The notes below the pieces were generated by a model. The model worked only from the letters and a program-made list of their open reading frames with translations, ran no database searches and was not told the DNA's origin. From Ruegeria sp. 6PALISEP08 (GTDB taxonomy: Bacteria; Pseudomonadota; Alphaproteobacteria; Rhodobacterales; Rhodobacteraceae), in assembly GCF_001238295.1 (NCBI RefSeq), contig NZ_LGXZ01000005.1, positions 248,001-312,000 of the forward strand: a stretch of DNA of 64,000 bases, written 5' to 3'. Shown here piece by piece: positions 45,447 to 62,389 of this stretch. How positions within the stretch are numbered: the stretch's first letter is position 1; every line of letters starts with the position of its first letter. Made by a program: the position numbers and the translations under genes.

Positions 45447-45584
45447 GCGTGGCTCATGCTGTTTAAGTCCCACCAAGGGAAAGATGATTGCGCTTCGGAT
45501 TCAGAGTGAAGCGCGTATTCGACCGTTATGAAGCAGATAAACGGCAAAATTTTGTCATTCTGAGAGAACTGTTGCTTCAGCAAA

Positions 45585-45614
45585 CAAAAAAAGGGCCGGT
45601 TCAAGCACCGGCCC
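45585..45614 (-). terminator. Rho-independent terminator of the kinase/LysM operon
   Basis: On the minus strand GGGCCGGT (45614-45607) pairs with ACCGGCCC (45600-45593), followed by a run of seven T. It lies 25 bases after the stop of the last LysM gene. Confidence 0.92.
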
Positions 45615-45638
45615 CAGAGTTTCAGCTGAACCGAGGGA

Positions 45639-46748
45639 TCAGTTCGAAGCTGCCATCAGTTTCTCGTTATGCTCGCGCAGCGTGTCGGAAACGACCGCAT
45701 ACCATTCACCGGATTCGCGCATTTCGTTCAGGCCCTTGTTCAACATCGCCAGATATTGTTTGCCAAACGGATTGCTGCGATGGCTGATAAAGCGCAGCGA
45801 AGACAGCGAAGTCACGAATGGGTTTTCGACCAGGTCGTTCTGGTTCAGACCCATTTCAACCATAGTGTCCGAGAACAGCTGAACCTCGAAGGTTGCAACA
45901 TCCGCAGTGCCTGTCAGTACCGCATCGAGACATTCCCGCGCGGTGATCGGTTGCATCAGAGTTATGGATTCACCATTGTGCAAACCTTCTTGTTCCAGGT
46001 CATGAATGAACCATCCATCCATACGGCAGATCGTGGCGCCTTTCAGCTCTTCAAAGGTTGTTGCGCCAGCAAAGTCGCTTTCGGGGATGGTGTAGAAACC
46101 GACCACGATGTCATAGACTGGTACGGACGAGTCGAACTGAGTGCAGCGCACTTCGGTTTCCCACGACCATTCATAAGTGCGATTGGTGCAGTCCGGCATG
46201 TTCCATGCCATGGAAACGTCGAAGGCACCAAGCGGCAGAAGGGTTTCAAGGTGCGAGTTCCAGTCATCCACAAAGCTGACAGAATAATCACGCGCGTTTC
46301 CGCCACGCTGCAACGCTGTGGTGCCCAAGCGTGTAATCGCACCGCCACCGTTCAGCGATTCATCCGCAAAAGGGGCCCAGCCGTTGCCGGTTACCAGCTT
46401 GATTGGCGGCTGGTAAACGCTCGAACGCTTGACGCTGGCCGCGCGCTGTTCTTCAGCCGCGATGATTTCCTGTGCGGTCTGACCATTCGGCAGGCTTCCG
46501 TCTTCACAAGGCAGGGCCAGAACCAAACCCGGTTCAAGAGCGTTGGGGTTCGTAATTTCGTTCCGGTTCGCGTTGAAGATCGGCTGATAGTTCGATGTTC
46601 CATAAGCCGCGATGGCAATGGTCGCCATTGTGTCACCGTCTTGTACGGTATAGTTGGTACAAGCTTCCTGTGCCGCCGCGGCACCCGCGCTCAGAGCGGT
46701 AATAGCGGTTGCTGAAAGCGCTACCTTCTTCATCTTCTCGTTAAACAT
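45639..46748 (-). CDS. LysM domain plus family-3 solute-binding domain, secreted
   Basis: 369 residues. A signal peptide ends near GAAAAQE. A LysM domain (YTVQDGDTMATIAIAAYG to LVLALPC) covers about residues 33-86. A bacterial solute-binding domain follows from about 115, starting IKLVTGNGWAPFADESLNGG. I start at the ATG at 46748, eight bases after GGAGG. No permease or ATPase is linked, so it may be a peptidoglycan-anchored receptor rather than a transporter part. It is the last gene of the unit and a paralog of the next upstream gene. Confidence 0.83.
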   Translation of the reverse strand: MFNEKMKKVALSATAITALSAGAAAAQEACTNYTVQDGDTMATIAIAAYGTSNYQPIFNANRNEITNPNALEPGLVLALPCEDGSLPNGQTAQEIIAAEEQRAASVKRSSVYQPPIKLVTGNGWAPFADESLNGGGAITRLGTTALQRGGNARDYSVSFVDDWNSHLETLLPLGAFDVSMAWNMPDCTNRTYEWSWETEVRCTQFDSSVPVYDIVVGFYTIPESDFAGATTFEELKGATICRMDGWFIHDLEQEGLHNGESITLMQPITARECLDAVLTGTADVATFEVQLFSDTMVEMGLNQNDLVENPFVTSLSSLRFISHRSNPFGKQYLAMLNKGLNEMRESGEWYAVVSDTLREHNEKLMAASN

Positions 46749-46792
46749 GTCCACTTCCTCCAGACTTTAGTTTGTCAGGCCAGATCGGGGCC

Positions 46793-48055
46793 TTATCCAT
46801 TTTCCATTTGATGACGCAGGGCAGTTGACACGATGTCGCGCCATTCGCCCGATTGCTGCATGATTGCCAGACCCTGATTCAGCGTCTCAAGGATCGCTTC
46901 CCCGTCAGGATTATCTTTGTGGGTCATGACGTTAAGCGACTTGATGGCCGCCAGGTTGGGGTTTTCGATAATCCGGTGTTGATATCCGAGCCGATCGATG
47001 GCTTCGGCCGCCAGATGCGCTTCGATTGCTACGATATCGACAGTGCCCTCCATTAGGGCGTGGAAGCAATCATCCGGCGAAGTCGGGCGTAGCAGTTTGA
47101 TAACCGGCTCGTATAGGTTCACCACGTCCATATGAGACAGTGACCAGCCTTCCGGGCGGCAGATCGTCGTTCCGGCAAAGTCGGCATAGGTCAACGTCTG
47201 CTCGTATCCTGATCCCTCACGAGCAAAGAACGTGTCCACGACCTCATAGAATGGGTTTGAGAAGTTGTAGGTTTCGCACCGGTTACGGTCGCTTTCCGAC
47301 AGTGCCGCGGCTTCCTCACAATTGGGGCGCGACCACGGGAAGGTGCCGTCAAAGGCCAGTGTCGGCATCAACAAGTCCAGATGCGATGACCAGTCGTTCA
47401 CGAACTGAATCTTGTAGGCTTGCTCTGGTGCGGCGCGAAACATGGCTGTCTCAACCAGATGCGTATACAGACCCCGGTTCGGCAGCGATTCATCGGTAAA
47501 CGGAGCGTAGTTACTGCCAGTGATCAGCAGCAACTGACGATCACGAATTTCGGGGCGTTCTCCCGTTCCGGCGTTTCGGATCAAAGCTGCGGCTTCCGAC
47601 CGGGCAGCCTCAATTTCTTCCTTCGCTGCAACCCGTGCTGCAACAACGGCCTCTTCACTCGCCTTCTTTGCTTCGGCCTCCGCAGCCGCAACGCGGGCTT
47701 CAGCTTCGGCAACGGCCTTTTCCGCACGTTCCTCGGCGGCCTTCACCAGCTCTGCCGCCATTTCAGCTGCCAGCCGTTCTGCTTCGGTATCGGCTAGCAC
47801 CGGAGCACGTCCGACATCTTCGAGACAGGGCAGTTCCAGAAGATCGCCGACACGAATGATGTTGGGGTTAGAGCCGATGACATCGCGGTTCGCATCGAAA
47901 ATAATGCGAAAATCTTCGGTCGCATAAACCTCGATTGCCAACTCCCGCAGGCTATCGCCGCGTTGAATTTCATAGCTTGAACACGCCTCTTGCGCCGAAG
48001 CAGCTCCGGTGGCCGCTGCGAGGGCAAGGCTGGATATGATAAGATTTTTTCTCAT
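46793..48055 (-). CDS. LysM domain, coiled coil and family-3 solute-binding domain, secreted
   Basis: 420 residues. Signal peptide to about AASAQE; LysM domain at roughly 25-77 (YEIQRGDSLRELAIEVYA ... VGDLLELPC); an Ala/Glu-rich coiled coil at about 90-165; then a solute-binding domain beginning LLLITGSNYAPFTDESLPNR. It shares with its neighbour the pattern FVNDW-SHL-LLP---FD and the ATICR/TTICRP(E)GW segment, so the two arose by duplication; the coiled coil is the main difference. It lies 21 bases downstream of the PP2C gene. No transporter partner is nearby, so a sensory or wall-anchored role is inferred. Confidence 0.83.
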   Translation of the reverse strand: MRKNLIISSLALAAATGAASAQEACSSYEIQRGDSLRELAIEVYATEDFRIIFDANRDVIGSNPNIIRVGDLLELPCLEDVGRAPVLADTEAERLAAEMAAELVKAAEERAEKAVAEAEARVAAAEAEAKKASEEAVVAARVAAKEEIEAARSEAAALIRNAGTGERPEIRDRQLLLITGSNYAPFTDESLPNRGLYTHLVETAMFRAAPEQAYKIQFVNDWSSHLDLLMPTLAFDGTFPWSRPNCEEAAALSESDRNRCETYNFSNPFYEVVDTFFAREGSGYEQTLTYADFAGTTICRPEGWSLSHMDVVNLYEPVIKLLRPTSPDDCFHALMEGTVDIVAIEAHLAAEAIDRLGYQHRIIENPNLAAIKSLNVMTHKDNPDGEAILETLNQGLAIMQQSGEWRDIVSTALRHQMENG

Positions 48056-48076
48056 GGGTCCTGTTGCTTAGCCTGT

Positions 48077-48859
48077 TTAAGTTCTTGTGAGTTTCGCGAC
48101 GGCGATGGATAGGTTGTCCTGATCCGGATCGCCTTTGGCCAGGACCGCCGCAAGCAAAGCTTCGGCTATGTCCTGAGCAAGAGCCTGCCCGTGTTCCTTC
48201 AGAACTGACTGAATTTCGTTGTCGCCAAGATACTGCAATCCGTCACTGGCAAGGATCAGGATGTCAGACGGCGACACCAGCAACGGCTCTTCCGGGCAAT
48301 CCACCTTGGGGATGCCACCACCAATGATGACCGAGGTCAGCTGGTTTCGGTCCATATGCTTGGCTTCAGCTTCGGTGATCTCTCCGGCAGCCAGTTTTTC
48401 GTCGATCACGGGCGCCATCGAGTGATCTTCGTTTACCTGAGACAACGTCCCATCGCGGAACAGGAAAAGGGGGCTGTCCCCGATCGATATCCAGTAAACG
48501 CGATGCCCCAGCAACAGGATGCCCAAAAGGGTCGCGCCCATATTGAAGCTCTCGCCCTGTTCCTCGTTATGAGTGGCGATCGCGGCATTGGCCTGCATCG
48601 CGGCCAGGGGCAGCGCATCGATCGCGGATCTCTCATTTAGGATCTCGGCCTCAAGCTCGACGTCAAGCGCGTCACGCCAGGCTGCGACCACCATTTCTGA
48701 CGCGACCTCACCTGCGTCATGACCACCCATTCCGTCCGCGATTACGACGTAACCCGCAGCGGACGCATCAAACATGCGTGCAGCAATGGCGTCTTCCTGC
48801 GTCTCTCGCTGACCTTGGTTCAGGATCAGCGCAACATCATATGCCGGGGTCGCCAGCAT
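48077..48859 (-). CDS. PP2C-family Ser/Thr protein phosphatase
   Basis: 260 residues. Metal-binding motifs of the PP2C/PppA/Stp family are present: GQRETQEDA near the N-terminus, VIADGMGGHDAGEVAS, LILASDGLQYL and a terminal DPDQDNLSIAVAKL. It would remove phosphate from Ser/Thr residues placed by the kinase encoded two genes upstream. It begins three bases after the FHA gene stop, so the two are probably co-translated. Confidence 0.9.
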   Translation of the reverse strand: MLATPAYDVALILNQGQRETQEDAIAARMFDASAAGYVVIADGMGGHDAGEVASEMVVAAWRDALDVELEAEILNERSAIDALPLAAMQANAAIATHNEEQGESFNMGATLLGILLLGHRVYWISIGDSPLFLFRDGTLSQVNEDHSMAPVIDEKLAAGEITEAEAKHMDRNQLTSVIIGGGIPKVDCPEEPLLVSPSDILILASDGLQYLGDNEIQSVLKEHGQALAQDIAEALLAAVLAKGDPDQDNLSIAVAKLTRT

Positions 48860-48862
48860 CTA

Positions 48863-49906
48863 TTAAGAATCCCGCCAATCAAAACCTTCGTCGCAGAAGG
48901 CCATGAACCGAAGAGAGGATTCGCTGATACGGATCAGGTCACCATTTGACAGGGCAACAGTGCTGAGCACGGGTTTGCCGTTGAGGCGCACAAGGTTGGC
49001 CTTGCCGCCATGACCCAGATAACATTTGCGATCTTCAGGGTCGTAGGCAATGACGGCATGGTTCGATCGTGAAATGCCGGTGTCGCCGAAATCCAGCTGA
49101 ATAGCTTGGTCGTCGTTGCGACCGATCTGCATCAGACCTTCGGTCAGTGTGACGCTAGCACCCCGTCCGGGACCAGCAGTGACAACCAGCCAGCCAACGG
49201 GGAAAGTCTTTTGCGCGGTTTCCGTTTTTGCCACGGGTGCTGCGGTTTCGATCAGGTCTTGCACATGTGTATCGGCCCGCTCGAAACCCAGGAAGGTTGT
49301 CTTAACGCGCGAGCGGCGATCTTCTTCCGGAGCAGGGGCAGGTTGGGCAGTCTCAGCAACAGGCTCAACGATCTCTTCAACCAGTTCGGGTTCTTGAACC
49401 TGCAGGTCTTCCACCTCGGCTTCTACCGCTGGCTCGGCTGCCGTGTCTTGCATCTCGGCAACTTCAGGTTCGACCTGTTCCGTGGCTTCTTCTACCCGGG
49501 CCGAGACAGGTTCGTCAGCCACGTGCAGGGTGATAACCTGTTCGTCCTCAATCGGATCAGCCGTGTTTTCAACTGCCGAGTCCAGCGCCGGCGCGTCGTC
49601 TTCGTCGGTGGGCGCTTCGGCAAAGATGGACTCTTCAACGGGCTCTTCCGCCTCAGTGGCCTCAGCCTCATCGAACTCTGGCATTTTCTCTTCCGGGATC
49701 AGCTCATCCGTTTCTTCATACGGTTCGGATGTCGTGTTCCCTCCGGCCAATGCAGCGCGCAGCGCGTTGAAGTCCGCGATCGGCTCTTGCTTTTGTTCTT
49801 CAGACGCGGCGATTTCTGTCGCCTCCACCTTTTCAGACGTATCTTCTTCTTTGGTCTTGCCGGCACCTTCGAGAAGCCGGCTCAGAGGGCTTTTGTATTT
49901 AAACAT
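48863..49906 (-). CDS. FHA-domain protein with long acidic N-terminal region
   Basis: 347 residues. Residues 1 to about 235 are low-complexity and rich in Glu, Ala, Val and Pro, probably unstructured. A single FHA domain fills the C-terminus: LMQIGRNDDQAIQLDFG, GISRSNHAVIAYD and LNGKPVLSTVALSNGDLI carry the GR, S and H/N positions that bind phosphothreonine. It is a natural reader for the kinase encoded upstream. A T-rich motif for phosphorylation may lie in the disordered part, but this is inferred. Confidence 0.88.
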   Translation of the reverse strand: MFKYKSPLSRLLEGAGKTKEEDTSEKVEATEIAASEEQKQEPIADFNALRAALAGGNTTSEPYEETDELIPEEKMPEFDEAEATEAEEPVEESIFAEAPTDEDDAPALDSAVENTADPIEDEQVITLHVADEPVSARVEEATEQVEPEVAEMQDTAAEPAVEAEVEDLQVQEPELVEEIVEPVAETAQPAPAPEEDRRSRVKTTFLGFERADTHVQDLIETAAPVAKTETAQKTFPVGWLVVTAGPGRGASVTLTEGLMQIGRNDDQAIQLDFGDTGISRSNHAVIAYDPEDRKCYLGHGGKANLVRLNGKPVLSTVALSNGDLIRISESSLRFMAFCDEGFDWRDS

Positions 49907-50024
49907 GGTGTCGACACCTTCAATTTGGCGGCACGAACAACTTGTGCCGAGGGGCTGCTACTTATCCCCGCGCTCACGGCACAGAGATACTCGATGAATA
50001 CTCAAGAAAACTGGTACATTCTGC

Positions 50025-50067
50025 GGCGGGCCGGTTCCCGCCGGGGTGGCAGAATTGGGTGCCACCC
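50025..50067 (-). repeat. Two adjacent hairpins between kinase and FHA genes
   Basis: GGCGGG/CCCGCC (50025-50042) and GGGTGGCA/TGCCACCC (50044-50067) lie back to back in the 202-base gap. The first resembles the REP-like hairpin at 36967. They may process or attenuate the transcript between kinase and FHA. Confidence 0.5.
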
Positions 50068-50108
50068 TCAGCAAACACACACTGGCAGATCACAACGAAC
50101 CGGTCAGA

Positions 50109-52274
50109 TTACTCCTGTGCAAGCGGCATGGTTCCGTTCGTCTCGACCCCATTTCGCAGGACGGTCAGCTGGGCGACCGCACGGCCTTCTGAGACAAGCT
50201 CGACCAGCATTGCGTCAAGACTGTCTGAACCGTCCAGATTTGCTCCCGTCTGGCTTTCACTCAGTAGGATATCGCCTTGTTGCAAGCCGCCCGCGTAATC
50301 TCCCGGAACGGACGTGACTTCTGTCTGCCAACTTTCGTTACCCGAACTGCTCACTGAGAAGGCATAGCCGTTCTCCAACCCCACGGACCGCATCACCGGA
50401 AGGGCAAGCAGACCATTCTGAGCCCGGGTCTGTCCAAGCGGACGATAGCGGGCCGCCACTCGGGTATAGCCGTCGGGATCAATGCTCAGAGTGTCAAGAA
50501 CTTGCGCAGCGAAGGATACATCTTGGCGCACAGGTTTGCCGTTGAGGGTAAAGATTACAGCTCCACGCTGCACCCATTCGCCAACCACACTCATATCCTG
50601 ATTGGAGTTTATCCCGGTGATTGCAATTGTCGGACCCGTCGAGCCGCGACGTTGAGACGTCTGGAAAGGGATTTCCACATCCCAGTGGGCAAAGGACACC
50701 TGTTGGGCCGCAGGAACTGCGGAGTCTGCGACCACCGTGGGTTCCGCTTCGGTTTCTGGTGCTTCTGCCGTCTGCGCCACAACCGCCGACGTTTCTTCTG
50801 TTGTGGGTGTTGTTTCCACGGCAACGGGCTCTGCAGCGTCTTCTTGTGCCTGCTCGACAGGCTCTGACAGCACTGGGGCAGGATCCGAGACCACTACGGC
50901 CTCAGGCGCTTCAGTGGCGGAAGCCTCCTCCGCAACGGGTGCTTCCGTTTCGGCAGTTTGAACATCCACCACGGATTGCTCAACCGGGGTCTCGGCCTTT
51001 TCTTCTAGCTTGTCCCCTGAAATGACGAAAAACCCACCTGCCGCCAAGGCAACTGCGACGACGGCCGCTCCGGCGATCATTTTACCGCTTCCACCTGAGC
51101 CGCTTTGAACAACGGTATCGACAGCAACAGGAGCCTCTTCCTTTGCCGCAATCTTAGCGAGTTCTTCTTTCTTCTTCTGTTCGTCGTTTCCAACAACGAT
51201 ATCTGCATTGCCAGCCAGAAGGGCCGTCACAACCGCTTCGGCATTTTCGCTTTCAGCTTTGATGCGTGCTTTTTCTTGTTCCTTGTCCTTGCGGTCCATA
51301 CCGACGATCACCGAAACCGGACGATAGGCGAAGGTGTCGAACATCACACCCGGGCCACGGAACATGCGCAACCAGTCCAGCGCTGTCTGCAAACGGTCCG
51401 TGGCGTGAACCTCCATCGCCTTGTCAATCGCTTCAAGGAAACCTTCGGGGTATCCCTCGAAACGTCCCGTCAGCGGGGCATAGGGATCGTCCTGCCCGTT
51501 ATTGAAGGCGTTCAAACGGCTCTGCCCGTCTACGGGGCGTTCGCCACTGATGGCGTGGTAAAGAGTTGCTGCCAGAACATAGAGATCGCTGCTCGGTCCT
51601 TGTTCCGCGCCCCGGACATAAAACTCGTGCGGAGAGTAACCATCTTTGATGACACGCAGGGTTAGCAGAGCCGCAGATTTGTTGGCCGCCTGTTCACGCG
51701 CTGCGCCAAAGTCGATCAGGACCGGATCACCGTTCTCATCGATCAGAATATTGTCCGGTGAGATGTCCCGGTGCAGCATGCCGCTTTGGTGAATAAACGA
51801 AACCGCCGACAACATCTTTTCCGTGACCTGCACGATAAAGTCAGGGCCCGTGTCGTTTTCAGGGTTTTCAACGTAATCGAGCAGATCGCAACCACGGATC
51901 AGATCCATCGCGATATAGGCGGTGTCGTTGTCTTCAAACACCTGATGCACGTCGACGATGTTGGGGTGCACAAGGCGTGCGTGATTGCGGGCTTCCAGAA
52001 TGAACAGATCAATGATAGCCCGCAGATCTTCCTTGTAAGACAGGTCATTGGGCTCGACCAAATCACCGTTTCGGCGACACAAGGCACCGGGGAAACACTC
52101 CTTGATCACCACGTCGCGCTCCAGGCTGTCGCGCGCCAGGTAGGTAATTCCGAATCCACCGTTGCTTAGGAAGCGAAGGATTTCATACTGCCCGCGCAAC
52201 AATTTCGCGCCAGGTTGCAATCCTTCAATTTTTGGTTCGTCGTGCGTCGCACCGACAGCCTGGTTGTGGCTCAT
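50109..52274 (-). CDS. Transmembrane Ser/Thr protein kinase with periplasmic C-terminal domain
   Basis: 721 residues. The kinase domain (about 28-310) has the glycine loop NGGFGITY (38-45), ATP-binding K58 in VIKE, H168-R-D in LHRDISPDN and D188-F-G. The usual lysine of HRDLKP is Ser (HRDISP), as in some other bacterial kinases. A membrane segment lies at about 398-419. Outside is a long Ala/Glu/Thr/Val-rich linker (421-555) and a folded C-terminal domain with PDZ-like GLQQGDILLSES. It should transmit an envelope signal to cytoplasmic targets. It stands between the GTPase block and the FHA/PP2C genes. Confidence 0.9.
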   Translation of the reverse strand: MSHNQAVGATHDEPKIEGLQPGAKLLRGQYEILRFLSNGGFGITYLARDSLERDVVIKECFPGALCRRNGDLVEPNDLSYKEDLRAIIDLFILEARNHARLVHPNIVDVHQVFEDNDTAYIAMDLIRGCDLLDYVENPENDTGPDFIVQVTEKMLSAVSFIHQSGMLHRDISPDNILIDENGDPVLIDFGAAREQAANKSAALLTLRVIKDGYSPHEFYVRGAEQGPSSDLYVLAATLYHAISGERPVDGQSRLNAFNNGQDDPYAPLTGRFEGYPEGFLEAIDKAMEVHATDRLQTALDWLRMFRGPGVMFDTFAYRPVSVIVGMDRKDKEQEKARIKAESENAEAVVTALLAGNADIVVGNDEQKKKEELAKIAAKEEAPVAVDTVVQSGSGGSGKMIAGAAVVAVALAAGGFFVISGDKLEEKAETPVEQSVVDVQTAETEAPVAEEASATEAPEAVVVSDPAPVLSEPVEQAQEDAAEPVAVETTPTTEETSAVVAQTAEAPETEAEPTVVADSAVPAAQQVSFAHWDVEIPFQTSQRRGSTGPTIAITGINSNQDMSVVGEWVQRGAVIFTLNGKPVRQDVSFAAQVLDTLSIDPDGYTRVAARYRPLGQTRAQNGLLALPVMRSVGLENGYAFSVSSSGNESWQTEVTSVPGDYAGGLQQGDILLSESQTGANLDGSDSLDAMLVELVSEGRAVAQLTVLRNGVETNGTMPLAQE

Positions 52275-52555
52275 TTCAATCCGCCCGTTTTACTCGTTTT
52301 TTGCGGCTTAAATAAACAGGGCCGACAGCCCACGAACTCACAACCAAAACAACCGCAGGACACTTGAGAACGGTTAGACGGTTCAAATTTGACTTTATTG
52401 GGGCCGCCTCGTGGCTTCACTATGGACCGTTTTTTCAATTTTGGCTTATATTGTGCTTTGCGGTTGTAATGATACTATATATTGATCGACAAGACGGTAT
52501 CAGTGAAAACGTAAACCCCAAAATCCAGTGGTTGGTCTACGAATTCGAAACAATA
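52275..52555 (-). other. Intergenic region before the kinase gene
   Basis: No credible gene. The stretch is A+T-rich and should hold the promoter of the kinase gene, because a terminator for the GTPase block lies just upstream. A TTG-initiated frame on the plus strand with one hydrophobic segment was not accepted because it runs through that terminator. Confidence 0.4.
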
Positions 52556-52577
52556 AAGGGCCGATTCCTCGGCCCTT
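52556..52577 (-). terminator. Hairpin terminator after the GTPase block
   Basis: AAGGGCCGA (52556-52564) and TCGGCCCTT (52569-52577) form a perfect 9-base stem with a TTCC loop, followed on the minus strand by TATTGTTT. It lies about 40 bases after the stop of the last GTPase gene and separates it from the kinase unit, though read-through is possible. Confidence 0.7.
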
Positions 52578-52615
52578 CGAATCGCTGAGTCGCGCTCAAT
52601 CTTAACGAGAAATTA

Positions 52616-53902
52616 TTAAGTGCCGGTTTTGGATTGCGCTGCGGCAACTGTGCTGCCGGCCCAGGCAAGGTTGTCACCCAGCTGCGCAAGAATGCTGATC
52701 GCGTCATTCAAAGGCGCATCACCACTTTCAAATTGCAGCAGCAACAACAGGTCCGTTGCCTTCTCGAATTCCGCCGGAATCCAATCTGCGTCGGGGTCGA
52801 TCTCCCCCCCTTGTTCCAGCCTTTCAGCGAAGTCTTCCACGATCTCCTGGCAGCTATGCAAAAATGCTGCGGGTTCGATGTTGGACGACTCACGAAGGTC
52901 TTCATAAATGCTGGCAATTGCGGCCAGCCAATCTTCGAGGATGGGATTGTTCAATGGCGGCAGGGCCGAGCCCAGAGTCGCGTGCATCGCAGGTGTTTCA
53001 GAAACGGCCGGTTCAGGTTCGGGACCCTCAAGCTCTTCGAGGTACGGCAGGAACTCCTGCTGCAAATCCTTTCGAGCGGCATCCAGATCACTGCGCCTCC
53101 GATTGGACGCTGCATCCAGAACTTGTTCGGCAAGGTTCTGTCCGCCGCATGTCTCCCACAGAGCAAAGTCAGGTTCCGGCTCCTGAGCAATCGCTTTGAC
53201 CGCTACCGGGGTACCAATCGGCACAATCTCACGGAACATCCCATCTTTTTCCTTGTTGAGACGTGCCAGAACACGGTCCAGTGACCCTTGTACCGGCGGC
53301 AGGTCGGCATGAGTAACAGCCAACAGACTGTTCGCGCGAAGTTCAGGCGGCACCTTCGACCACAAGTGGCGCTCAGTCTCGCGCCATGCATTTGTACCGT
53401 TTGTGCACCAGATGGCGCAGTCGACGAACTTCAGCAGATCCAGAGTTTTTTTATACGTATCGTCCAAGGCACCCGACCCAGGAAGATCAAACAGCGAGAT
53501 TTCCTTGAGGGCAGGCGTGTTGATCCCCACCGAGATGAAATCCGGCTCATCCGCCGCCGCTTTTTCAAGCGCGATCCCGGAATAGGTCTTGGGTTCCTTG
53601 TTCCACCAGCCCACGGTCGTCTCAGGCACATCGGCATAAGCCACGATCACAAGCGGCAGTTTCAGATGCTGTGGGCCTGTGGGCAGAATATCTGCACCGG
53701 CCAGCATATTTGCCAGGCTCGACTTGCCCGCGCCAAATTCCCCGGCAAACCCGATATTGACCGCGTTGGACAGCCGCTCGGCATGGGCCAGAGCCCGTGC
53801 GCGCATGCCCTCCAACTTTGCATCCGATGACAGTTTTTCAGTCGCGGTCAGAAAACGCTCCAGCTGGCGCACTTCCTGTTCGGTTCCGGGAAATTCAATC
53901 AT
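52616..53902 (-). CDS. Short dynamin-like GTPase (copy B)
   Basis: 428 residues. P-loop GEFGAGKSS at 54-62; switch II is DLPG (139-142) instead of DTPG; the G4 position reads THAD (197-200). A WCTNGTNAWRETER segment (165-178) is nearly identical to WCTHATQAWRETER in the short GTPase at 57352, which shows the two are paralogs. The C-terminal half (about 275-428) is helical with acidic patches. It overlaps the long GTPase gene by four bases, so the two are likely made as partners. The changed motifs leave its GTP hydrolysis uncertain. Confidence 0.82.
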   Translation of the reverse strand: MIEFPGTEQEVRQLERFLTATEKLSSDAKLEGMRARALAHAERLSNAVNIGFAGEFGAGKSSLANMLAGADILPTGPQHLKLPLVIVAYADVPETTVGWWNKEPKTYSGIALEKAAADEPDFISVGINTPALKEISLFDLPGSGALDDTYKKTLDLLKFVDCAIWCTNGTNAWRETERHLWSKVPPELRANSLLAVTHADLPPVQGSLDRVLARLNKEKDGMFREIVPIGTPVAVKAIAQEPEPDFALWETCGGQNLAEQVLDAASNRRRSDLDAARKDLQQEFLPYLEELEGPEPEPAVSETPAMHATLGSALPPLNNPILEDWLAAIASIYEDLRESSNIEPAAFLHSCQEIVEDFAERLEQGGEIDPDADWIPAEFEKATDLLLLLQFESGDAPLNDAISILAQLGDNLAWAGSTVAAAQSKTGT

Positions 53903-55941
53903 TCCGCAGCCTCTGCTAGTCGTTCGTCCACACTGCCTGTTCCAAAGACACTTTCAAGATCCGTAGCAATGCGGCGCGCCCGGTCGAATGCAGTTTGTGC
54001 TTCGGCCTGAGCATTCAATTCACCCGCGCCAGAGCGGTGTTCGAAATGGCCCGCCAACAGGGCCACGTAGTGATCCAAAACTGTATTCAGCCGTTCCAGT
54101 AAGTTGTCGCGTGTCGTGTCGATCAGGTCGTCGCCGATCAGCTCGAACTCTTGCACGATCATCCGTTCTGCCCGCGTCACCACGCTGTTGCGCGAGATCA
54201 GGCGCGATAGCCAGTTTACACGCAACTCGACCGTAATTCCACGGGTGAGCGCAGTGGTATCGGGTCGGAACCAACGAACAGCGCTGGTGTTCATGCGACT
54301 ATCGACCGGTTCTTGCCAACCCGGCAATGCACGCAAAGCCGCATTGCATTGCATATCGATGGTATAGAGCTCGCTCAGCATACGCTGGCGCACCACTTGC
54401 GACGCGCCTTGCATTAGTTCCCGCATGTGTTCCCGCAGGGGGGTAAAGTTCAGTTCGGTCGCACCCCCTTTGGCCAGAAGAGGCGATTGACCATTCGGTC
54501 CACGTACTACGGCCGAGACGGATTCAGCGACTGTATCATCCATTACCCCGCGCAGATTGGACAGGACATCATCCATGTCCCGGGTAATGTCTTGTGTCTT
54601 ATCGGCAATCAGTTTGCGCAACTCACCAAGGGTCTTGTCGCTGTCATCTGCGCTACGTGCGTCGGAATTGTTTTCATCTTGCAGCGCCCGCAGATGAACC
54701 TGGGACCGCTCAAGCTCGCCTCGCGCGAAACTGTCAAGATGCTGCCACGCCATCCGAAGGTGTTCGTCAATAGGCCCGTCCGTCAGAGCTTTGGTAACAT
54801 GACGGCGCAAATCCGGTAGTCCCGAAGCGATCATTGCTGCAAAGCGCAACACGGCCTCACGGCTGATCGGCCCGGGGCCTTGCTTTATCTCGGCAACGCC
54901 GTTCAGGTATTGCTGCATCTGTTCCGGGTGCGCCCGCAGCCACGCCAGGACATGGTCATGGTTCACGCCGGTTTCGTCGCCGGTCAGCGCATAATGAGCC
55001 CATTGAGCGCTGCCCATCAGAACGTCGATGTCCGAATTGCCGAGCGCCTTCTCCAGCCCGTCTAAAACATCCAGACGCACTTTGGTCGCGTCTTCGGGCC
55101 CGCCACCCAGTTCATCGACACGGTTGATGAAAACAACGATCTGACCAAGCTCAAGCGCCTGCATAAGGCGGAACAGTTTGAGATCCGCGCGTGACAACGC
55201 CTGATGCGCGGATAGAACCACCACGAAGAAATCGGATTCCTTGAGGTACTGGCGCGAAATCTCTTCGCGGATCAACAGCGGATCGTTGACCCCCGGTGTG
55301 TCCGTGACGGTTAGTGGGAACGGGAAATGTCCAATGTCGAAATAGACTTCAGCCTTGCGGGTGATGTCGCTGTAAAGCCCACGATCACTGCCCGGATCGA
55401 CACCGCCATCTTCGGCAGGATCATCTCCGGCGCATACATAGCGCGCCAGATCGTCCGAGTTGAGTTGATCAAGATCGTGGTGTTGTCCCAACAGCTGTTC
55501 ATAGCTGTCGCCCAGACGCAGGCGTGCCCGGGTCTTCATGGCCTCGACCTGTTCTTCGATCATCTCGCGCTTATAGCTGTCCTCGTCATCGGGGAACATG
55601 TTGCGCAGTTCTTCACCTTCGGCGATCAGGGATTGCCACTGGTGATTGTCGAAAAAATGAAATTCAGCCCCATCGGTCCGACCAGAGGGATGCCCGAAAT
55701 GCATGTCGGTGATCACGGTGGTCCACGGGTTGACGTCTGACGGCAGGTATTCAGCCTGCCCGGTGAACCCGTTGATCAAACGTGATTTTCCTGCCTTGAT
55801 CTGCCCTACAAATGCGATTGACGGCTTTAGGTTTCCCAGATCTCCGATGATGCGCGAAATGAAATGCCGCGTTTCGTCATTGCTGGTTTCATTCATGTCT
55901 TCTGCGATGCGTATAAGCTCGCGGCGATGTGTATCACTCAT
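53899..55941 (-). CDS. Long dynamin-like GTPase (copy B)
   Basis: 680 residues. The N-terminal G domain has the P-loop GQIKAGKS (46-53), the G2 region PSDVNPWTTVIT (67-78), switch II DTPGVND (214-220) and G4 NRVD (273-276). A long helical region (about 380-680) follows, with a tryptophan/arginine-containing stretch (RVNWLSRLISRN) that may touch membranes. Dynamin-family proteins bind and remodel membranes as oligomers. It pairs with the short GTPase overlapping its stop, and is a paralog of the long GTPase at 59109 (shared PSDVNPWT, DTPGVND and NR(V/I)DEL). Confidence 0.87.
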   Translation of the reverse strand: MSDTHRRELIRIAEDMNETSNDETRHFISRIIGDLGNLKPSIAFVGQIKAGKSRLINGFTGQAEYLPSDVNPWTTVITDMHFGHPSGRTDGAEFHFFDNHQWQSLIAEGEELRNMFPDDEDSYKREMIEEQVEAMKTRARLRLGDSYEQLLGQHHDLDQLNSDDLARYVCAGDDPAEDGGVDPGSDRGLYSDITRKAEVYFDIGHFPFPLTVTDTPGVNDPLLIREEISRQYLKESDFFVVVLSAHQALSRADLKLFRLMQALELGQIVVFINRVDELGGGPEDATKVRLDVLDGLEKALGNSDIDVLMGSAQWAHYALTGDETGVNHDHVLAWLRAHPEQMQQYLNGVAEIKQGPGPISREAVLRFAAMIASGLPDLRRHVTKALTDGPIDEHLRMAWQHLDSFARGELERSQVHLRALQDENNSDARSADDSDKTLGELRKLIADKTQDITRDMDDVLSNLRGVMDDTVAESVSAVVRGPNGQSPLLAKGGATELNFTPLREHMRELMQGASQVVRQRMLSELYTIDMQCNAALRALPGWQEPVDSRMNTSAVRWFRPDTTALTRGITVELRVNWLSRLISRNSVVTRAERMIVQEFELIGDDLIDTTRDNLLERLNTVLDHYVALLAGHFEHRSGAGELNAQAEAQTAFDRARRIATDLESVFGTGSVDERLAEAAE

Positions 55942-56007
55942 TACTCACTACCTTGGTCACACTAAAACGGATTGAATTAATCGAAAATTTGAATGCTATG
56001 GAGGCAA

Positions 56008-56874
56008 TCATTCAGCTACCCCCTGTAAAGAGGTCCACAGATTGACGACCGCCCCCAACTTGCGCGCATCGTGGACAGCAACCGCTATCTGATCGCTGTC
56101 GCTCAGCACCGCCATTCCCGCGCCTTTTCCGCCGGATGGTCGCATGACAATGAGATGGGGGCTGTCAAACTCGTCCTGACTATCGTTCTCCCAACCTGCA
56201 AGATCAGCCACGAAACGTGCCAAAACCTCCTGATCGGGATGCATGTCTTGGGAAGGTTGACAGGAACCCTCGCAAGCCAAAGCGGCGTTGCTTGTCCCGT
56301 CGATCAACATACGGCCTGTGGCGAAGCGGCCCGCATGATCAAAGAACTTTTGGGCCAAGTTGGCTGGGCGATCTTCAACCGTGGACGGTTCATCCTCTTC
56401 CGGCGCGTCGATGTCTGGCACGACCGAAACAATCGGTTCAGCGGATATATCTATGGCAGCGCACGCGTTTTCGATTTCGCTGAACGTCAAACCCACATCG
56501 TCGGCCTCAAGGGCTGAATCCGGCTTACCCGACATCAGCTCAAGCGGGGCAGGGGCGTTTGCGATGTCTGACACCAGCTGCGCCAACTTTTCAACCAGTG
56601 CGTCACGCGTTTCGGTTTCGAAATCCGGCGTCGGCCCATCGGGCACTTGAAAGACGTCCGTGACCCGCGAGCTGTTCACTTCAAGTGCCAGACACGCCCC
56701 ATTGGCGGCTGTAAACTCTAACCGACGTGGCAGGACCGTACCGCGAATGGCGCGCAGGATTGCCGCGCGCCGGGACACAGCGGAGTCCCCCGTGATCATC
56801 ACAGCTGGCGACAACCGTGCCACCGAAGACCGCCCGATATCTTCGAGCATGCCCAGAATGTCAGTGTCCATCAT
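56008..56874 (-). CDS. Protein of unknown function between the two GTPase pairs
   Basis: 288 residues, not recognised. The first 115 residues look folded and include a TGDSAVSRRAAILRAIRGTV segment followed by beta strands. Residues 120-170 are acidic and probably flexible. The last 110 residues are again folded, with HLIVMRPSGGKGAGMAVLSD and IAVAVHDARKLGAVV. No signal peptide or membrane segment is seen. It lies 23 bases after the roadblock-like gene and 66 bases before the copy-B long GTPase gene, so it is probably a cytoplasmic part of the same machine. Confidence 0.7.
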   Translation of the reverse strand: MMDTDILGMLEDIGRSSVARLSPAVMITGDSAVSRRAAILRAIRGTVLPRRLEFTAANGACLALEVNSSRVTDVFQVPDGPTPDFETETRDALVEKLAQLVSDIANAPAPLELMSGKPDSALEADDVGLTFSEIENACAAIDISAEPIVSVVPDIDAPEEDEPSTVEDRPANLAQKFFDHAGRFATGRMLIDGTSNAALACEGSCQPSQDMHPDQEVLARFVADLAGWENDSQDEFDSPHLIVMRPSGGKGAGMAVLSDSDQIAVAVHDARKLGAVVNLWTSLQGVAE

Positions 56875-56897
56875 ACCGTGACCCCCTCTGGTCCCGT

Positions 56898-57299
56898 TCA
56901 GACTGCGGCCGCAACCGGCCCTAGACTGAGATGTGATTTTGTCAGCGCCAATCCCACATTTGCGCTGTTGCGGCAGATATAGCAGACCACATGATCAGGA
57001 TATTCCTTGGTCCGCAAAAAAATGTTCAGGCGATCTTTCGAGAACACAGCGATTTCCCCAAACCCTGTATTCTCCGCATCGTCGCGTCCAGTCTGACGCA
57101 TTAGCGCTTCAAACGCGGCAACCCCGCGCCCTTGAAAAAGATTGGCCACAGCGATTGCCAATATGTCCAAAGACTCGGCGCATTCCGGATCCGAGACGCA
57201 ACTCCCCAGAAGCATCCCTGTTTCCATATCGACATACCCGGCTGCAACGCAGTCGGGTATCTTTTCGATTGCCGTGCTCAATGCCTCCTGAATTGACAT
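56898..57299 (-). CDS. Small roadblock/LC7-like protein
   Basis: 133 residues. The predicted order of elements is an N-terminal helix, the beta hairpin AAGYVDMETGMLLGS, the helix DILAIAVANLFQG, then strands in FGEIAVFSKDRLNIFL and HVVCYICRNSANVGLAL. This fits the roadblock/LC7 fold, whose bacterial members such as MglB regulate small GTPases. Assignment is by pattern, not by a decisive motif. Its place between two dynamin-like GTPase pairs supports a role as GTPase regulator or scaffold. Confidence 0.6.
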   Translation of the reverse strand: MSIQEALSTAIEKIPDCVAAGYVDMETGMLLGSCVSDPECAESLDILAIAVANLFQGRGVAAFEALMRQTGRDDAENTGFGEIAVFSKDRLNIFLRTKEYPDHVVCYICRNSANVGLALTKSHLSLGPVAAAV

Positions 57300-57351
57300 C
57301 TAACTATTTGTTATCCCTATAGGTTTGACCATTTTCCTGATTCGACGATCT

Positions 57352-59100
57352 CTACAACACATGCCATTCCGCCGCACTACTTTCTTTTGCTTTTGGAATG
57401 GATTGCAGTACTTCCTTCGTCTGCTTCGCGCTGTGTTCGATTGCGATCTGATCAAACTCAGCCAAAAATGCCTTGAACACATTTTTTAAGCCATCTGCAT
57501 CTTCAGGCAAGTCTTCACTACTTGCTACTTCCCGCCACATTGCGGCTGCACTTAAAGGGGATCCAACGGCAACTTCCGGCAGATCTCCCAGCGCCGCGAC
57601 ATTTGAATCGACTGCATCCACCCGATCTGACAGAGCCGCTTCGATCAAACCACTGTTCTCGGGCTCCGGTTCATAGTCTTCAGCAGTGATGTTGGGCTGA
57701 GCCGCCATCAAAGCTGCGATAGAGGATACCGAAACCTCGATGCCGCGATCTTCGCGCTCGTCGATCTCTTCAGCCTTATCGTCCGAGACATCTGTGTCGA
57801 CCGGGACGTCTCGCAAAGTGCTGTGAAGCGAGGTCAGAACATCATCGGTATTGTCAATCTCGTCAGCTTGCGCCTCGATCACCTCTACGTCAGCCGCCTC
57901 TTCCGACAGATCATCAATCTCGTCATCAAGATCCGCTTCGTCTGACAGTTCGAACTCGTCGATTGCATCCTCAAGGCCGGCCACATTGGTCAGCTCCAAA
58001 GGATCATTCGACGTGTCCCTGAAGAAGGCGCGCAAATCATCGCTTGTATCCGGCTCTTCGGGCAGGGAGTCCGGTTCCGAAACCATTTCGGTCCGCATAC
58101 GTTCAGCTTCTTCAGCGTCGATCCGCACGCGTTCGGCCTCATCCGAGCGCCGCTCCACGCGCGCAGGCCGAACAGGAAAGCTGGTGACAATCGCGGTGTC
58201 GTTCTGCGCGGGCTGAGCGTCTGTTTCCAACGGGTTAACCAACCGCAAAGGCGCGGCTTCGACCTGCGCGTCACTGTCCGATGAGCGTGCAGGGCGCATG
58301 GGCTGCACCTTCGGGGCGTCTGACTGGCTTTTGTCAATCTGATACCGGGCCAGTTGATCGGCACGATTGTCCATGATCTGCTCTGTGATCTCCAGGAAAC
58401 TGTCGATCATCTTGCCACCACCGCTGCGCGACCACATCTCTGCGTCGCCGGTCTTGTCACGCGCGACAATTGCATCCCGAGCAGAAAACAGAATAGATCG
58501 ATTGAACAGATGCCCGGCCTCGCGGTTCACGCGGCGCAGAACCTTTTGACGGTCCTTGAGATTCAGAGCATCCGCGCGAGTGACCAATAGCAGCGAATTG
58601 TGCTGCAAACGTTCAGGCAGGGATACCCATGTTGCACGCTCTGTCTCGCGCCAGGCTTGGGTCGCGTGGGTACACCACAAAACGCCATTCGCCTGACCCA
58701 CGGCCCGCTGCCAGACATCCGTCGAGATTTTAGGATCCGAGATTCCGGGCGTGTCGATCAGATCCACCGCCTCAAGGATATCGGCCTCAAGGAATACGCG
58801 GATAAACTGCGCGTCATTGACACCAATAGATTCTAGATCGTCCAATTCTATAGTTTCGACAGAGCCATCATGACGCTTGATATAGGGTGCACGATCACCC
58901 CAGCTGAACCAGACCGGAGGCAGTTGTGTTGCAGTGACCTGCGTCGGCAAGGTCTGCGTTCGCAACAGAAAATTCATCAACGTAGACTTACCGGCGCTGA
59001 ATTCGCCCATCAGAGCGAAAACCGGTTTACGGCGGGACCACTGCTCGATACGTTCCCAAGCCTTCGGTGAAACAAAGCGTGATTGTGTATCTTTTGCCAT
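57352..59100 (-). CDS. Short dynamin-like GTPase with long acidic tail (copy A)
   Basis: 582 residues. G domain: P-loop GEFSAGKST (32-40), switch II DTPGISD (116-122), G4 TRAD (174-177). Residues from about 245 to 500 are strongly acidic, rich in Asp, Glu, Ser and Ala, and probably unstructured. A short helical C-terminus (about 505-582, including AAAMWREVA and FKAFLAEFDQI) follows. Copy B lacks this tail length. It begins eight bases after the stop of the long GTPase at 59109, giving the same long-then-short order as the other pair. Confidence 0.85.
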   Translation of the reverse strand: MAKDTQSRFVSPKAWERIEQWSRRKPVFALMGEFSAGKSTLMNFLLRTQTLPTQVTATQLPPVWFSWGDRAPYIKRHDGSVETIELDDLESIGVNDAQFIRVFLEADILEAVDLIDTPGISDPKISTDVWQRAVGQANGVLWCTHATQAWRETERATWVSLPERLQHNSLLLVTRADALNLKDRQKVLRRVNREAGHLFNRSILFSARDAIVARDKTGDAEMWSRSGGGKMIDSFLEITEQIMDNRADQLARYQIDKSQSDAPKVQPMRPARSSDSDAQVEAAPLRLVNPLETDAQPAQNDTAIVTSFPVRPARVERRSDEAERVRIDAEEAERMRTEMVSEPDSLPEEPDTSDDLRAFFRDTSNDPLELTNVAGLEDAIDEFELSDEADLDDEIDDLSEEAADVEVIEAQADEIDNTDDVLTSLHSTLRDVPVDTDVSDDKAEEIDEREDRGIEVSVSSIAALMAAQPNITAEDYEPEPENSGLIEAALSDRVDAVDSNVAALGDLPEVAVGSPLSAAAMWREVASSEDLPEDADGLKNVFKAFLAEFDQIAIEHSAKQTKEVLQSIPKAKESSAAEWHVL

Positions 59101-59108
59101 TTTTCTAC

Positions 59109-61121
59109 TTATGCCGCTTCGTTGCTTAGATCTTTTAGGATGTCACCCAGAATCTCGTCCTTGGATTTCTGGGGCTGTAAATCCGCCATCGCCGCCGCAG
59201 TCTGACCTGCGTTCTTATCAGCCGTCGACGAGATGCTCAGCAAGGTTTCTTTCTGTTCGCGCATAAAATCCGTCAGGATCGCGCGGACATTTTCCAACAC
59301 TGCTGCGACTTGGTTTTCTTCGATGTCCTTGGTGATCGAATTTGCCTCAGACGCGATCAAACGCGTGTAATCCGCAGCGTATGCTTCAAAGCCCTTGCGC
59401 TTTTGCCACCATCGCCGCCACCAGGTGCTTTGCAAGTCCAGAGCAATCGTCCGGCCAATGCCAAGTGGTGGAGGCACGCGAGGCACGATGGGCGCTTCTA
59501 TGCTGAATTCACCCAGGTGGTTGCCGAGTATCTTATGATATAGCGCCTCAACATCACCAGCAGCTGTGGTATAAAGAGCCCCGGCGTCTTTCCGCATAGC
59601 GCGGGCAAAGCTGAAATAGGCGGCCTTTTGTAGGGTACGCAGACCCGCCGGGTCATACTGCCAGGTGCCTTGTTCGCCATTCTTCTCAAGATGCGCGATC
59701 AAAGAGTCCGTAGCGCGTTTGACAAAGCTGGCTTCGGCCGAGTTCAGACGCTCCAACACCTTGTCGCGCAACGCATTTGTCAATTCGGCAGCTTTCTTAT
59801 CGTATTCCGCCGACATCGTGTTGATGGCCTCTTCGGGCGACACGCCGTCTAGGTCCCGAGCGACGCCTTCGCCGTCGGACAGGTTTTTGGCGACCGCTGT
59901 CGCGCGGATTTGGCTGGCGATGTTTCGGGCCCGGTGGCGCACACGGTTCATCAGTCGAGACCCAGCCCCTTCGGCAATACGTTCGTTGATGGCCAAAAGC
60001 AGATCGGGCAGGCCGGACAGTGCCCAGATTTTGTCCAGTGAGGCCGCCTGATCCCCAAACCCGGCCGCCAGGTAGAAGGTATTCAGGGCTTCACGCGACT
60101 CTTCGGTCAGAATATCCGGATTGCCGGTCAGGGCTGCTTCGGCCCAGATAGCACTGCCAAAGACGACGCTGGTGTTGGTATCGATATTGTTCTGTTTCAG
60201 CGTGTCCTGAATGCGGTCGCGGATTTCCGGCACCTGATTAACCGGATCCGAGAGTTCGTCGATGCGGTTGACGAACAGGACAATCTGACGGTTCTCGAAC
60301 TGCGCGATTATACGCATCAGGGCCATATCCATCGTAGTCAGCGCCTGACTTGCCGCCAGAACCACGACACAGACCTCAGAACCGCGCAAACTGCGCAGCG
60401 TGATCTGTTCACGCACCATGAATGTATCGTTAACGCCGGGTGTATCGCAAAGCTTGAGAGCGATCGGATATTGCGGGATATCCATATACAGCTCAGCCGA
60501 CTTGGTGACATCAGCAAAGCGACCGGTTTTCGGGTCGATATCCGGATCGTCTTCGTCGCCCAGGCACACATAGCGTTTGATCAGTTCTTCATCGAAGTGA
60601 TCGTATTGATGGCTTTGGCCGAGGATCAGGTCAAAATGCTTGCCAAGGCGTTCTTCGGATTTGGCTTTCATCTCACCGATCTGACGGCGGATGTCGTCCA
60701 TTTCATCATCTGCGCCAGCCCGGTTCGCCAGCTCCCCCAGACGACCGCCGCCGACCATCAGATTGTCCCATTCTTCCTGCTCAAAGAATGTAAACTTGGC
60801 TTTGGTATCGCCTGGCGGGCGTGTGTTGATATTCAGGGTCGTGACCACAGACGTCCACGGGTTGACATCCGACGGCAGCAGGGCAGGGCGCCCGGCCAGT
60901 ATGTTCACAATCGATGATTTGCCTGCCTTGACCTGACCCACCATCGTGATGCTGGCGGTGAAGTTTTCCATCCGCGTCTTGAGGGTGGCCAGCCGTGCCG
61001 AGGAGCGCGCATCAGCCACCTCAGTCAAGTGATCGATCTGCGTCGTCAGTGAAGACATGGCAGAGGTCATCGGGGCCAATGCTTCGTTGCCGACAGACAA
61101 AAGGTGATCGTTGCGCGCCAT
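59109..61121 (-). CDS. Long dynamin-like GTPase (copy A)
   Basis: 670 residues. P-loop GQVKAGKSS (62-70), G2 region PSDVNPWTSVVT (83-94), switch II DTPGVND (226-232), G4 NRID (285-288). The C-terminal 280 residues are mostly helical, with the aromatic/basic stretch TWWRRWWQKRKG near residue 575 as a candidate membrane-binding tip. It is collinear with the 680-residue copy B over its length. It is the second gene of the block, two bases after the small unknown gene, and is followed by its short partner. Confidence 0.88.
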   Translation of the reverse strand: MARNDHLLSVGNEALAPMTSAMSSLTTQIDHLTEVADARSSARLATLKTRMENFTASITMVGQVKAGKSSIVNILAGRPALLPSDVNPWTSVVTTLNINTRPPGDTKAKFTFFEQEEWDNLMVGGGRLGELANRAGADDEMDDIRRQIGEMKAKSEERLGKHFDLILGQSHQYDHFDEELIKRYVCLGDEDDPDIDPKTGRFADVTKSAELYMDIPQYPIALKLCDTPGVNDTFMVREQITLRSLRGSEVCVVVLAASQALTTMDMALMRIIAQFENRQIVLFVNRIDELSDPVNQVPEIRDRIQDTLKQNNIDTNTSVVFGSAIWAEAALTGNPDILTEESREALNTFYLAAGFGDQAASLDKIWALSGLPDLLLAINERIAEGAGSRLMNRVRHRARNIASQIRATAVAKNLSDGEGVARDLDGVSPEEAINTMSAEYDKKAAELTNALRDKVLERLNSAEASFVKRATDSLIAHLEKNGEQGTWQYDPAGLRTLQKAAYFSFARAMRKDAGALYTTAAGDVEALYHKILGNHLGEFSIEAPIVPRVPPPLGIGRTIALDLQSTWWRRWWQKRKGFEAYAADYTRLIASEANSITKDIEENQVAAVLENVRAILTDFMREQKETLLSISSTADKNAGQTAAAMADLQPQKSKDEILGDILKDLSNEAA

Positions 61122-61123
61122 GC

Positions 61124-61615
61124 TTAACCTCCGGTTCCCGTAGCAGCAATCTGGGGTTCGTGTGACACGCGCCCAGACGGGATGCTTGTCAGAGTGTCGA
61201 TACGTGCGATCAGATCCAGTGCGTTACCGAGGATCTCGGCCTCGGCACACGGAGAAATGGTTTCGTAGGCTTTGGAATCCGCCAGCACTTCAATCGAGCT
61301 GAAGCGGTCGCCGTTTTCAAGTCGCGCAACGCGGCGCCCGGTCGGGAAACCTTCGGATTTTACGGCAGGTAAAGGCATACGTGCATTGGCCAGCAGATAG
61401 TGTTCTCCGGAATGCGTGTGCAGAGAAATACCAAAGCCGGTATTCGGATGATCTCGGTTCAGGGTCTTGAGCTCGCCAAGAAAGCTCTCGCGAGCAAAGA
61501 AGACAGCTTCTTGCTCGGCGGCAACGGTAGGGTTCATATCGGTCACAGCAGAAAACCTTGTACTGGAGTTGAGCAGAAAACTCGTACCGGTGCCAAAGTG
61601 GCGAAAAAGACTCAT
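61124..61615 (-). CDS. Small protein of unknown function heading the GTPase operon
   Basis: 163 residues, not recognised. Central strands (TGFGISLHTHSGEHYLLANA) and the helix EAEILGNALDLIARIDTL suggest one compact cytoplasmic domain; no signal peptide. The ATG at 61615 has AGGAG three bases upstream; an internal ATG at 61537 lacks a ribosome site but would start closer to the predicted fold. It is separated from the long GTPase by two bases and is the first gene of the GTPase block, so a regulatory or adaptor role is plausible. Confidence 0.7.
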   Translation of the reverse strand: MSLFRHFGTGTSFLLNSSTRFSAVTDMNPTVAAEQEAVFFARESFLGELKTLNRDHPNTGFGISLHTHSGEHYLLANARMPLPAVKSEGFPTGRRVARLENGDRFSSIEVLADSKAYETISPCAEAEILGNALDLIARIDTLTSIPSGRVSHEPQIAATGTGG

Positions 61616-62304: not shown

Positions 62305-62389
62305 GCGGGTGTGGCGAAATTGGTAGACGCACCAGATTTAGGTTCTGGCGCCGCAAGGCGTGGGGGTTCAAGTCCCTCCACCCGCACCA
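62305..62389 (+). tRNA. tRNA-Leu (anticodon UAG)
   Basis: The acceptor stem GCGGGTG pairs with CACCCGC, and an encoded CCA follows the discriminator A. The anticodon stem CCAGA/TCTGG encloses the loop TTTAGGT with TAG at positions 34-36. The variable arm (GCGCCGCAAGGCGT region) is long, as in class II leucine tRNAs, and the T arm holds GGTTCAAGTCC. Confidence 0.97.

Follow-up and report, generated by a model that had tools for sequence, protein, structure and literature searches.

The 64,000-nucleotide stretch of Ruegeria sp. 6PALISEP08 analysed here (contig NZ_LGXZ01000005.1, positions 248,001 to 312,000; hereafter the window) carries a module of twelve genes that joins two pairs of dynamin-family GTPases and two roadblock proteins to a transmembrane Ser/Thr kinase, an FHA protein, a PP2C phosphatase and two secreted LysM proteins. 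The genes are lettered A to L in the order of transcription, which runs on the minus strand from position 61,615 down to 45,639 as A-B-C-D-E-F-G-H-I-J-K-L. They fall into a GTPase block of seven genes (A-G) and a kinase block of five (H-L). It is well supported that the two blocks constitute one conserved system in part of the Rhodobacteraceae, a family of marine bacteria across which the module recurs with its gene order shuffled. The probability that the twelve genes form a single envelope-to-membrane signalling system, working by the mechanism proposed below, is put at about 55%. The combination is rated as new against the open-access literature, and every part of it comes from a known family.

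The function of bacterial dynamins, and the triggers to which they respond, is a largely open field. In this module, dynamin-family GTPases come with candidate regulators, the two roadblock proteins, and with a set of genes for writing, reading and erasing phosphorylation that ends in a periplasmic sensor. The question of how dynamins are controlled thereby becomes directly testable in a culturable Ruegeria.

Two gene blocks that remain neighbours

None of the 37 Ruegeria genomes in the first sample lacks either long GTPase (B or F), and 60 of the 247 genera of Rhodobacteraceae have a relative of F. A profile search gave matches in 35 of 101 genera in a sample of the order and in none of 285 genomes of the class outside the family. 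Among the 40 loci annotated from other genera, the GTPase-roadblock block has a kinase, FHA or PP2C gene for a neighbour in 24, the usual order being H-I-J-G-B-C-D-E. The original prediction, made from the sequence alone, had proposed a single system and had named rare adjacency of the blocks in related genomes as the outcome that would speak against it; instead, the blocks stay neighbours across genera and across gene orders.

This is also seen in the clade that contains Ruegeria, together with Roseovarius albus, Aliiroseovarius, Actibacterium, Defluviimonas, Frigidibacter and Roseovarius aestuarii. Here, the blocks adjoin wherever the contig permits a check, except at one locus from a metagenome-assembled genome (L149), where no kinase block was seen. 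At least five relative orders or orientations of the two blocks exist within the clade, including ABCDEFGHIJKL in Ruegeria, BCDEG-HIJK in Frigidibacter and HIJKK-ABCDEG in Roseovarius aestuarii, with the blocks divergent in Actibacterium and convergent in Defluviimonas. The tree of the kinase domain of H recovers the LysM-type group with support of 100/98, and the tree of B recovers it with 100/99, the group then including one further row in which no kinase block was seen. Since both trees recover the same clade, the blocks have been inherited together while being shuffled. At 21 of 32 loci of the H-I-J-G-B-C-D-E type, the PP2C gene shares 4 bp with the short GTPase-like gene, and the translational coupling that such an overlap suggests fits control of the GTPases by the kinase.

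In the window, 341 bp lie between the blocks, and a gap of about 340 bp is retained in most Ruegeria loci. Within it lies a terminator-like hairpin which, across 43 loci, is identical or nearly so in the closest ones and replaced by different hairpins in some others. Because the gap and the hairpin split the blocks, A-G and H-L are probably two transcription units. Hairpins in the region are no commoner than expected by chance, and for the one that follows L it is the position that suggests a function. Promoter-like sites in the region do not exceed their count in shuffled sequence.

Components of the module

All twelve genes are intact open reading frames at the positions first given for them, although the original prediction spoke of eleven while listing twelve (Table 1). 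The four GTPases exceed the Pfam cut-off for Dynamin_N (27 bits), with 44.1 bits for B, 38.7 for C, 51.8 for F and 37.7 for G, and their P-loops are intact. Their initial description as four dynamin-like GTPases thus holds for this domain in every case, and needs qualification for the short proteins, which are a dynamin-type G domain plus a tail; in C, the N-terminal G domain is followed by a long acidic tail. B carries the motifs GQVKAGKS (G1), DTPG (G3) and the G4-like NRID, as well as WWRRWW near its C-terminus, and a segment of this WWxxWW type is conserved in most of the long proteins. Its profile matches structures of a Campylobacter dynamin-like protein (5owv, 1.3e-14) and of BDLP (2j68, 3.1e-14) in the PDB. 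F shares 24% identity with B and falls in a separate clade; judged by sequence, it is a deep paralogue. Long and short proteins are encoded side by side as B-C and F-G in the window, and such pairs occur across genera.

For D and E, the domain databases Pfam and NCBIfam gave nothing useful. Sequence profiles of both proteins matched the PDB at chance level only, and AlphaFold2 models were therefore made from alignments of 20 homologues for D and 22 for E. The model of D (pLDDT 90.5) matches 3kye in Foldseek at 3.4e-7 and, in VIA, superposes on MglB (1j3w/6hjm) with Z 15.9 and a root-mean-square deviation (rmsd) of 1.9 Å over 118 aligned residues (1j3w). That of E (pLDDT 85.3) comprises an N-terminal alpha/beta domain and a C-terminal part that Foldseek matches to MglB at 1.6e-4; in VIA, residues 165-288 align with MglB 6hjm over 111 residues (Z 10.0, rmsd 3.5). 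On these models, D is a roadblock/LC7 domain of the MglB fold and residues 165-288 of E are a second one. The early roadblock call for D is thus borne out by structure, despite having been missed by Pfam and NCBIfam, and E, which had been left as an unknown protein, gains a roadblock assignment. A roadblock family related to these takes the place of D and E after the GTPase pair in other genera. That the roadblock acts together with the GTPase is well supported, because in two genera a roadblock domain and a short GTPase are fused in one reading frame (L089:7461-8723 and L055:7221-8642).

In the kinase block, the Pkinase, FHA and PP2C domains of H, I and J all exceed their Pfam cut-offs. H has a single membrane helix at about 400-418 and an ectodomain of 303 amino acids (aa), the C-terminus of which gives a weak PDZ/DegP-like match, a hint at most. 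Its catalytic K, HRD and DFG motifs are intact, and catalytic motifs are retained in all kinases examined whose sequence is complete. I has an acidic N-terminal tail and a C-terminal FHA domain. K has a signal-peptide-like N-terminus, a SBP_bac_3 match below cut-off (1.2e-4) and a weak match to an NCBIfam LysM-protein profile (2.5e-6). L passes the cut-off for Pfam LysM and is a paralogue of K at 34% identity.

These LysM solute-binding proteins (LysM-SBPs) go with a particular form of the kinase. A membrane helix and an ectodomain of at least 270 aa are found in 20 kinases. Genes for LysM-SBP, PBP-OmpA or PilJ proteins adjoin 18 of the 19 assessable ectodomain kinases, as against none of 25 kinases without an ectodomain (Fisher p 4e-11, a value that exaggerates how many independent events there are, since the ectodomain kinases form one clade). 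Two different types of protein that combine a periplasmic binding domain with a peptidoglycan-binding domain occur, one per subclade of these kinases. Four genomes (loci L196, L197, L198 and L199) carry an ectodomain kinase with two LysM-SBP genes at a separate locus, with no FHA, PP2C, GTPase or other module gene nearby; in the module itself, the kinase is cytosolic in three and was not captured in the fourth (G251). Since such cassettes stand alone, the LysM-SBPs go with the kinase ectodomain, not with the GTPases. The earlier suggestion of envelope sensing by the kinase or LysM proteins gains from this association of ectodomains with peptidoglycan-linked SBPs, and is weakened by the small number of independent events within a single kinase clade. 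Secreted PBP-OmpA fusions, PilJ-domain proteins or both replace the LysM-SBPs beside ectodomain kinases at L059, L064, L177, L178 and L181 (downstream of E).

Table 1. Features of the module in window coordinates, in transcription order
Feature	Position	Strand	Description	Supporting match or note
A	61124..61615	-	163-aa protein, first in GTPase block; fold unassigned	
B	59109..61121	-	Long dynamin-family GTPase 1, 670 aa	Dynamin_N 2.9e-11
C	57352..59100	-	Short dynamin-family GTPase 1, 582 aa	Dynamin_N 1.3e-9
D	56898..57299	-	Roadblock/LC7 protein, 133 aa (predicted)	AlphaFold2 model, Foldseek, VIA
E	56008..56874	-	Two-domain protein, 288 aa, C-terminal roadblock (predicted)	AlphaFold2 model, Foldseek, VIA
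F	53899..55941	-	Long dynamin-family GTPase 2, 680 aa	Dynamin_N 1.2e-13
G	52616..53902	-	Short dynamin-family GTPase 2, 428 aa, 4-bp overlap with F	Dynamin_N 2.8e-9
Terminator-like hairpin 3' of G	52555..52578	-	Within the 341-bp G-H gap	
H	50109..52274	-	Transmembrane Ser/Thr kinase, 721 aa	Pkinase 8.7e-28
I	48863..49906	-	FHA protein, 347 aa	FHA 4.1e-8
J	48077..48859	-	PP2C phosphatase, 260 aa	PP2C_2 2e-13
K	46793..48055	-	Secreted LysM + family-3 solute-binding-like protein, 420 aa	SBP_bac_3, LysM-protein profile
L	45639..46754	-	Second secreted LysM + solute-binding-like protein, 371 aa	LysM 1.7e-4
Terminator-like hairpin 3' of L	45592..45615	-	Module end	

Searches of Pfam, NCBIfam and the PDB gave no match for A, which is kept beside B in the Ruegeria loci examined, Aliiroseovarius, Roseovarius albus, Pseudaestuariivita and Sulfitobacter algicola. 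A family-2 glycosyltransferase gene (44412-45476) comes after the module, and adjoins it in several close Ruegeria as well. Upstream, a tRNA-Leu gene (62305-62389) lies on the opposite strand.

Several variants and settings of the module were encountered. One variant has neither kinase nor PP2C; its D and E accompany a DSP-type protein phosphatase, an ABC-type ATPase and either a single GTPase gene or a pair, and a ferredoxin-reductase/globin protein is encoded nearby (L050:5624-12290, L052:5567-14906, L054:5698-13912, L159:1195-7662). At other loci, the GTPase pair is accompanied by one or two roadblock proteins only (L163, L165, L167, L168, L095). Genes for mreB, mreC and a PBP2-like protein sit beside the module in close relatives of Silicimonas/Boseongicola (L074, L081, L086, L175, L176), and motB-flgE-flgK lie directly downstream of two different module types (L068, L079, L155, L156). 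The module is carried on plasmids in Leisingera, such as the 106-kb plasmid of Leisingera aquaemixtae (L211), and on extrachromosomal replicons of 389-811 kb in Ruegeria, the largest being that of Ruegeria sp. THAF33 (811 kb, L210).

Proposed mechanism and rival explanations

Under the proposed mechanism, in which the flow of the signal, the action on membranes and the purpose of the system are all putative, K and L would be periplasmic, held to peptidoglycan by LysM, and would report a small ligand or the state of the wall to the ectodomain of H. The kinase would then phosphorylate I, threonines of the GTPases and their acidic tails, or both. The FHA domain of I would dock on phosphothreonine, bringing kinase and GTPases together, while J would reset the phosphorylation state. 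Together, D and E would act as a roadblock platform governing the GTP cycle of the long/short pairs, in the way that MglB governs that of MglA. Lastly, the long GTPases, perhaps via the WWxxWW segment, would gather into assemblies on the cytoplasmic membrane, which they would remodel or tether. Action of the long GTPases on membranes is suggested by their dynamin-family G domains, by the Campylobacter dynamin pair, which tethers liposomes (PMC6104087), and by the tryptophan-rich segment. For the full chain, from wall-anchored binding proteins through the kinase and an FHA-read, PP2C-erased signal to roadblock-regulated dynamin pairs in direct control of membrane remodelling, the chances are judged to be a little under even.

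A number of observations weigh against this interpretation. By sequence, the long GTPases resemble known dynamins in the G domain only, and the match of their profile to PDB structures is confined to the start of that domain. The G-type short protein is without a P-loop or DxxG motif in many genera, and consequently not every 'GTPase' need be active. The ectodomain kinases, as noted, form one clade, and one of them (L207) has no SBP neighbour. In addition, 16 of the 40 loci from other genera have GTPase blocks without a kinase block; since some GTPase pairs with roadblocks have no kinase, FHA or PP2C gene beside them, the kinase is not obligatory.

With regard to the G-type protein itself, the gene that follows PP2C has lost its P-loop in several genera (L058, L060, L065, L073, L077, L083, L084, L085), and DxxG is mostly missing outside the group to which the window belongs. 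From these motif losses, such proteins are apparently pseudo-GTPases.

Chance adjacency of a receptor kinase system and an independent dynamin system could account for the 16 blocks without a kinase, for the ectodomain kinase and LysM-SBP cassettes that stand alone in four genomes, and for the 341-bp gap with its hairpin. It is nevertheless very unlikely, because the blocks have stayed together despite five or more rearrangements within a single clade; the translational coupling between PP2C and its short GTPase-like neighbour (21 of 32 loci) also argues against it. An unlikely alternative, suggested by the MglB fold of D and E, is a polarity or positioning switch, in which an MglA/MglB-like core places an envelope-spanning machine such as the flagellar motor or rod complex and the dynamins serve as positional markers rather than remodellers. 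The positions of module variants, directly upstream of motB-flgE-flgK at four loci and next to mreB-mreC-PBP2 genes within the Silicimonas/Boseongicola-like group, would agree with this. However, no Ras-like MglA was found among the module genes, and the mreB-adjacent loci are close relatives (kinase branches of 0.006-0.03), so their adjacency is probably one event. A flagellar function was rejected, as flagellar genes show no co-occurrence with the module: they are present in 44 of 55 genomes with a long GTPase and in 54 of 64 without (Fisher p 0.63).

Anti-phage defence, in which envelope damage by a phage would trigger the kinase and the dynamins would seal or sacrifice the membrane, is a quite improbable possibility and is not favoured. 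It draws on PADLOC matches of the GTPases to LeoA/LeoBC and of the kinase to PD-T4-6/mad6, and on the presence of the module on plasmids and other extrachromosomal replicons. Yet the GTPase matches are weak (at most 36 bits) and cover part of the protein, and those of the kinase fit any Hanks-type kinase; the PD-T4-6 profile gives 1.3e-42 on the kinase domain, as expected of any related member of that family. All 18 plasmid matches were typed as non-mobilizable. The presence of both long GTPases throughout the first sample of Ruegeria genomes, and the unchanged IDH/ugpC neighbours of the module in Ruegeria sp. THAF33, are unlike a variable defence island.

Comparison with known systems

A published system joining dynamin pairs and roadblocks to a Ser/Thr kinase, FHA protein and PP2C was not found in the open-access full-text literature, subscription journals lying outside the search, and within that scope the original remark that no described system of this composition was known still stands. 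Ser/Thr kinase-FHA-PP2C regulatory trios are known from type VI secretion loci, and H, I and J are likewise encoded together. Beside the loci examined, no type VI secretion genes were recognised, the neighbours being dynamins and roadblocks. Membership of LeoABC was rejected on the weak, partial-length PADLOC matches.

Paired dynamins are an established class in bacteria, and the pairs of the module fall within it. As in Cj-DLP1/2 and Streptomyces DynA/DynB, GTPases of the dynamin family are encoded side by side in an operon (PMC6104087; other bacterial dynamins are dealt with in PMC7016017). Unlike these, the present locus has a very short partner, two unrelated pairs, and genes for roadblock proteins and phosphorylation. 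With the MglA/MglB module of Myxococcus and Thermus (PMC9481161) it shares the roadblock fold of D and of the C-terminus of E, and a roadblock that likely acts on a GTPase. Membership of that module was rejected, since a small Ras-like GTPase was not found among the module genes: the GTPase here is of dynamin type, and kinase, FHA and PP2C genes and periplasmic sensors are in the neighbourhood.

The actinobacterial conservons, or AGPS (CvnA-CvnB-CvnC-CvnD; PMC13343842), likewise join a membrane sensor kinase, an MglB-type roadblock and a GTPase in an operon, and in both systems the sensory domain of the kinase and the accessory sensors vary together. Conservons combine a histidine kinase with a DUF-containing CvnC and a small Ras-like GTPase, whereas in the alphaproteobacterial module the kinase is of Ser/Thr type and comes with FHA and PP2C, the GTPases are dynamin-family pairs, and there are two roadblock proteins. 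Conservon membership was rejected in spite of the MglB-type roadblock, H being a Hanks-type Ser/Thr kinase and the GTPases being dynamin-family proteins of 428-680 aa. If the proposed system is real, roadblock control would extend from Ras-like GTPases to dynamins, in a layout unlike that of any described bacterial signalling system.

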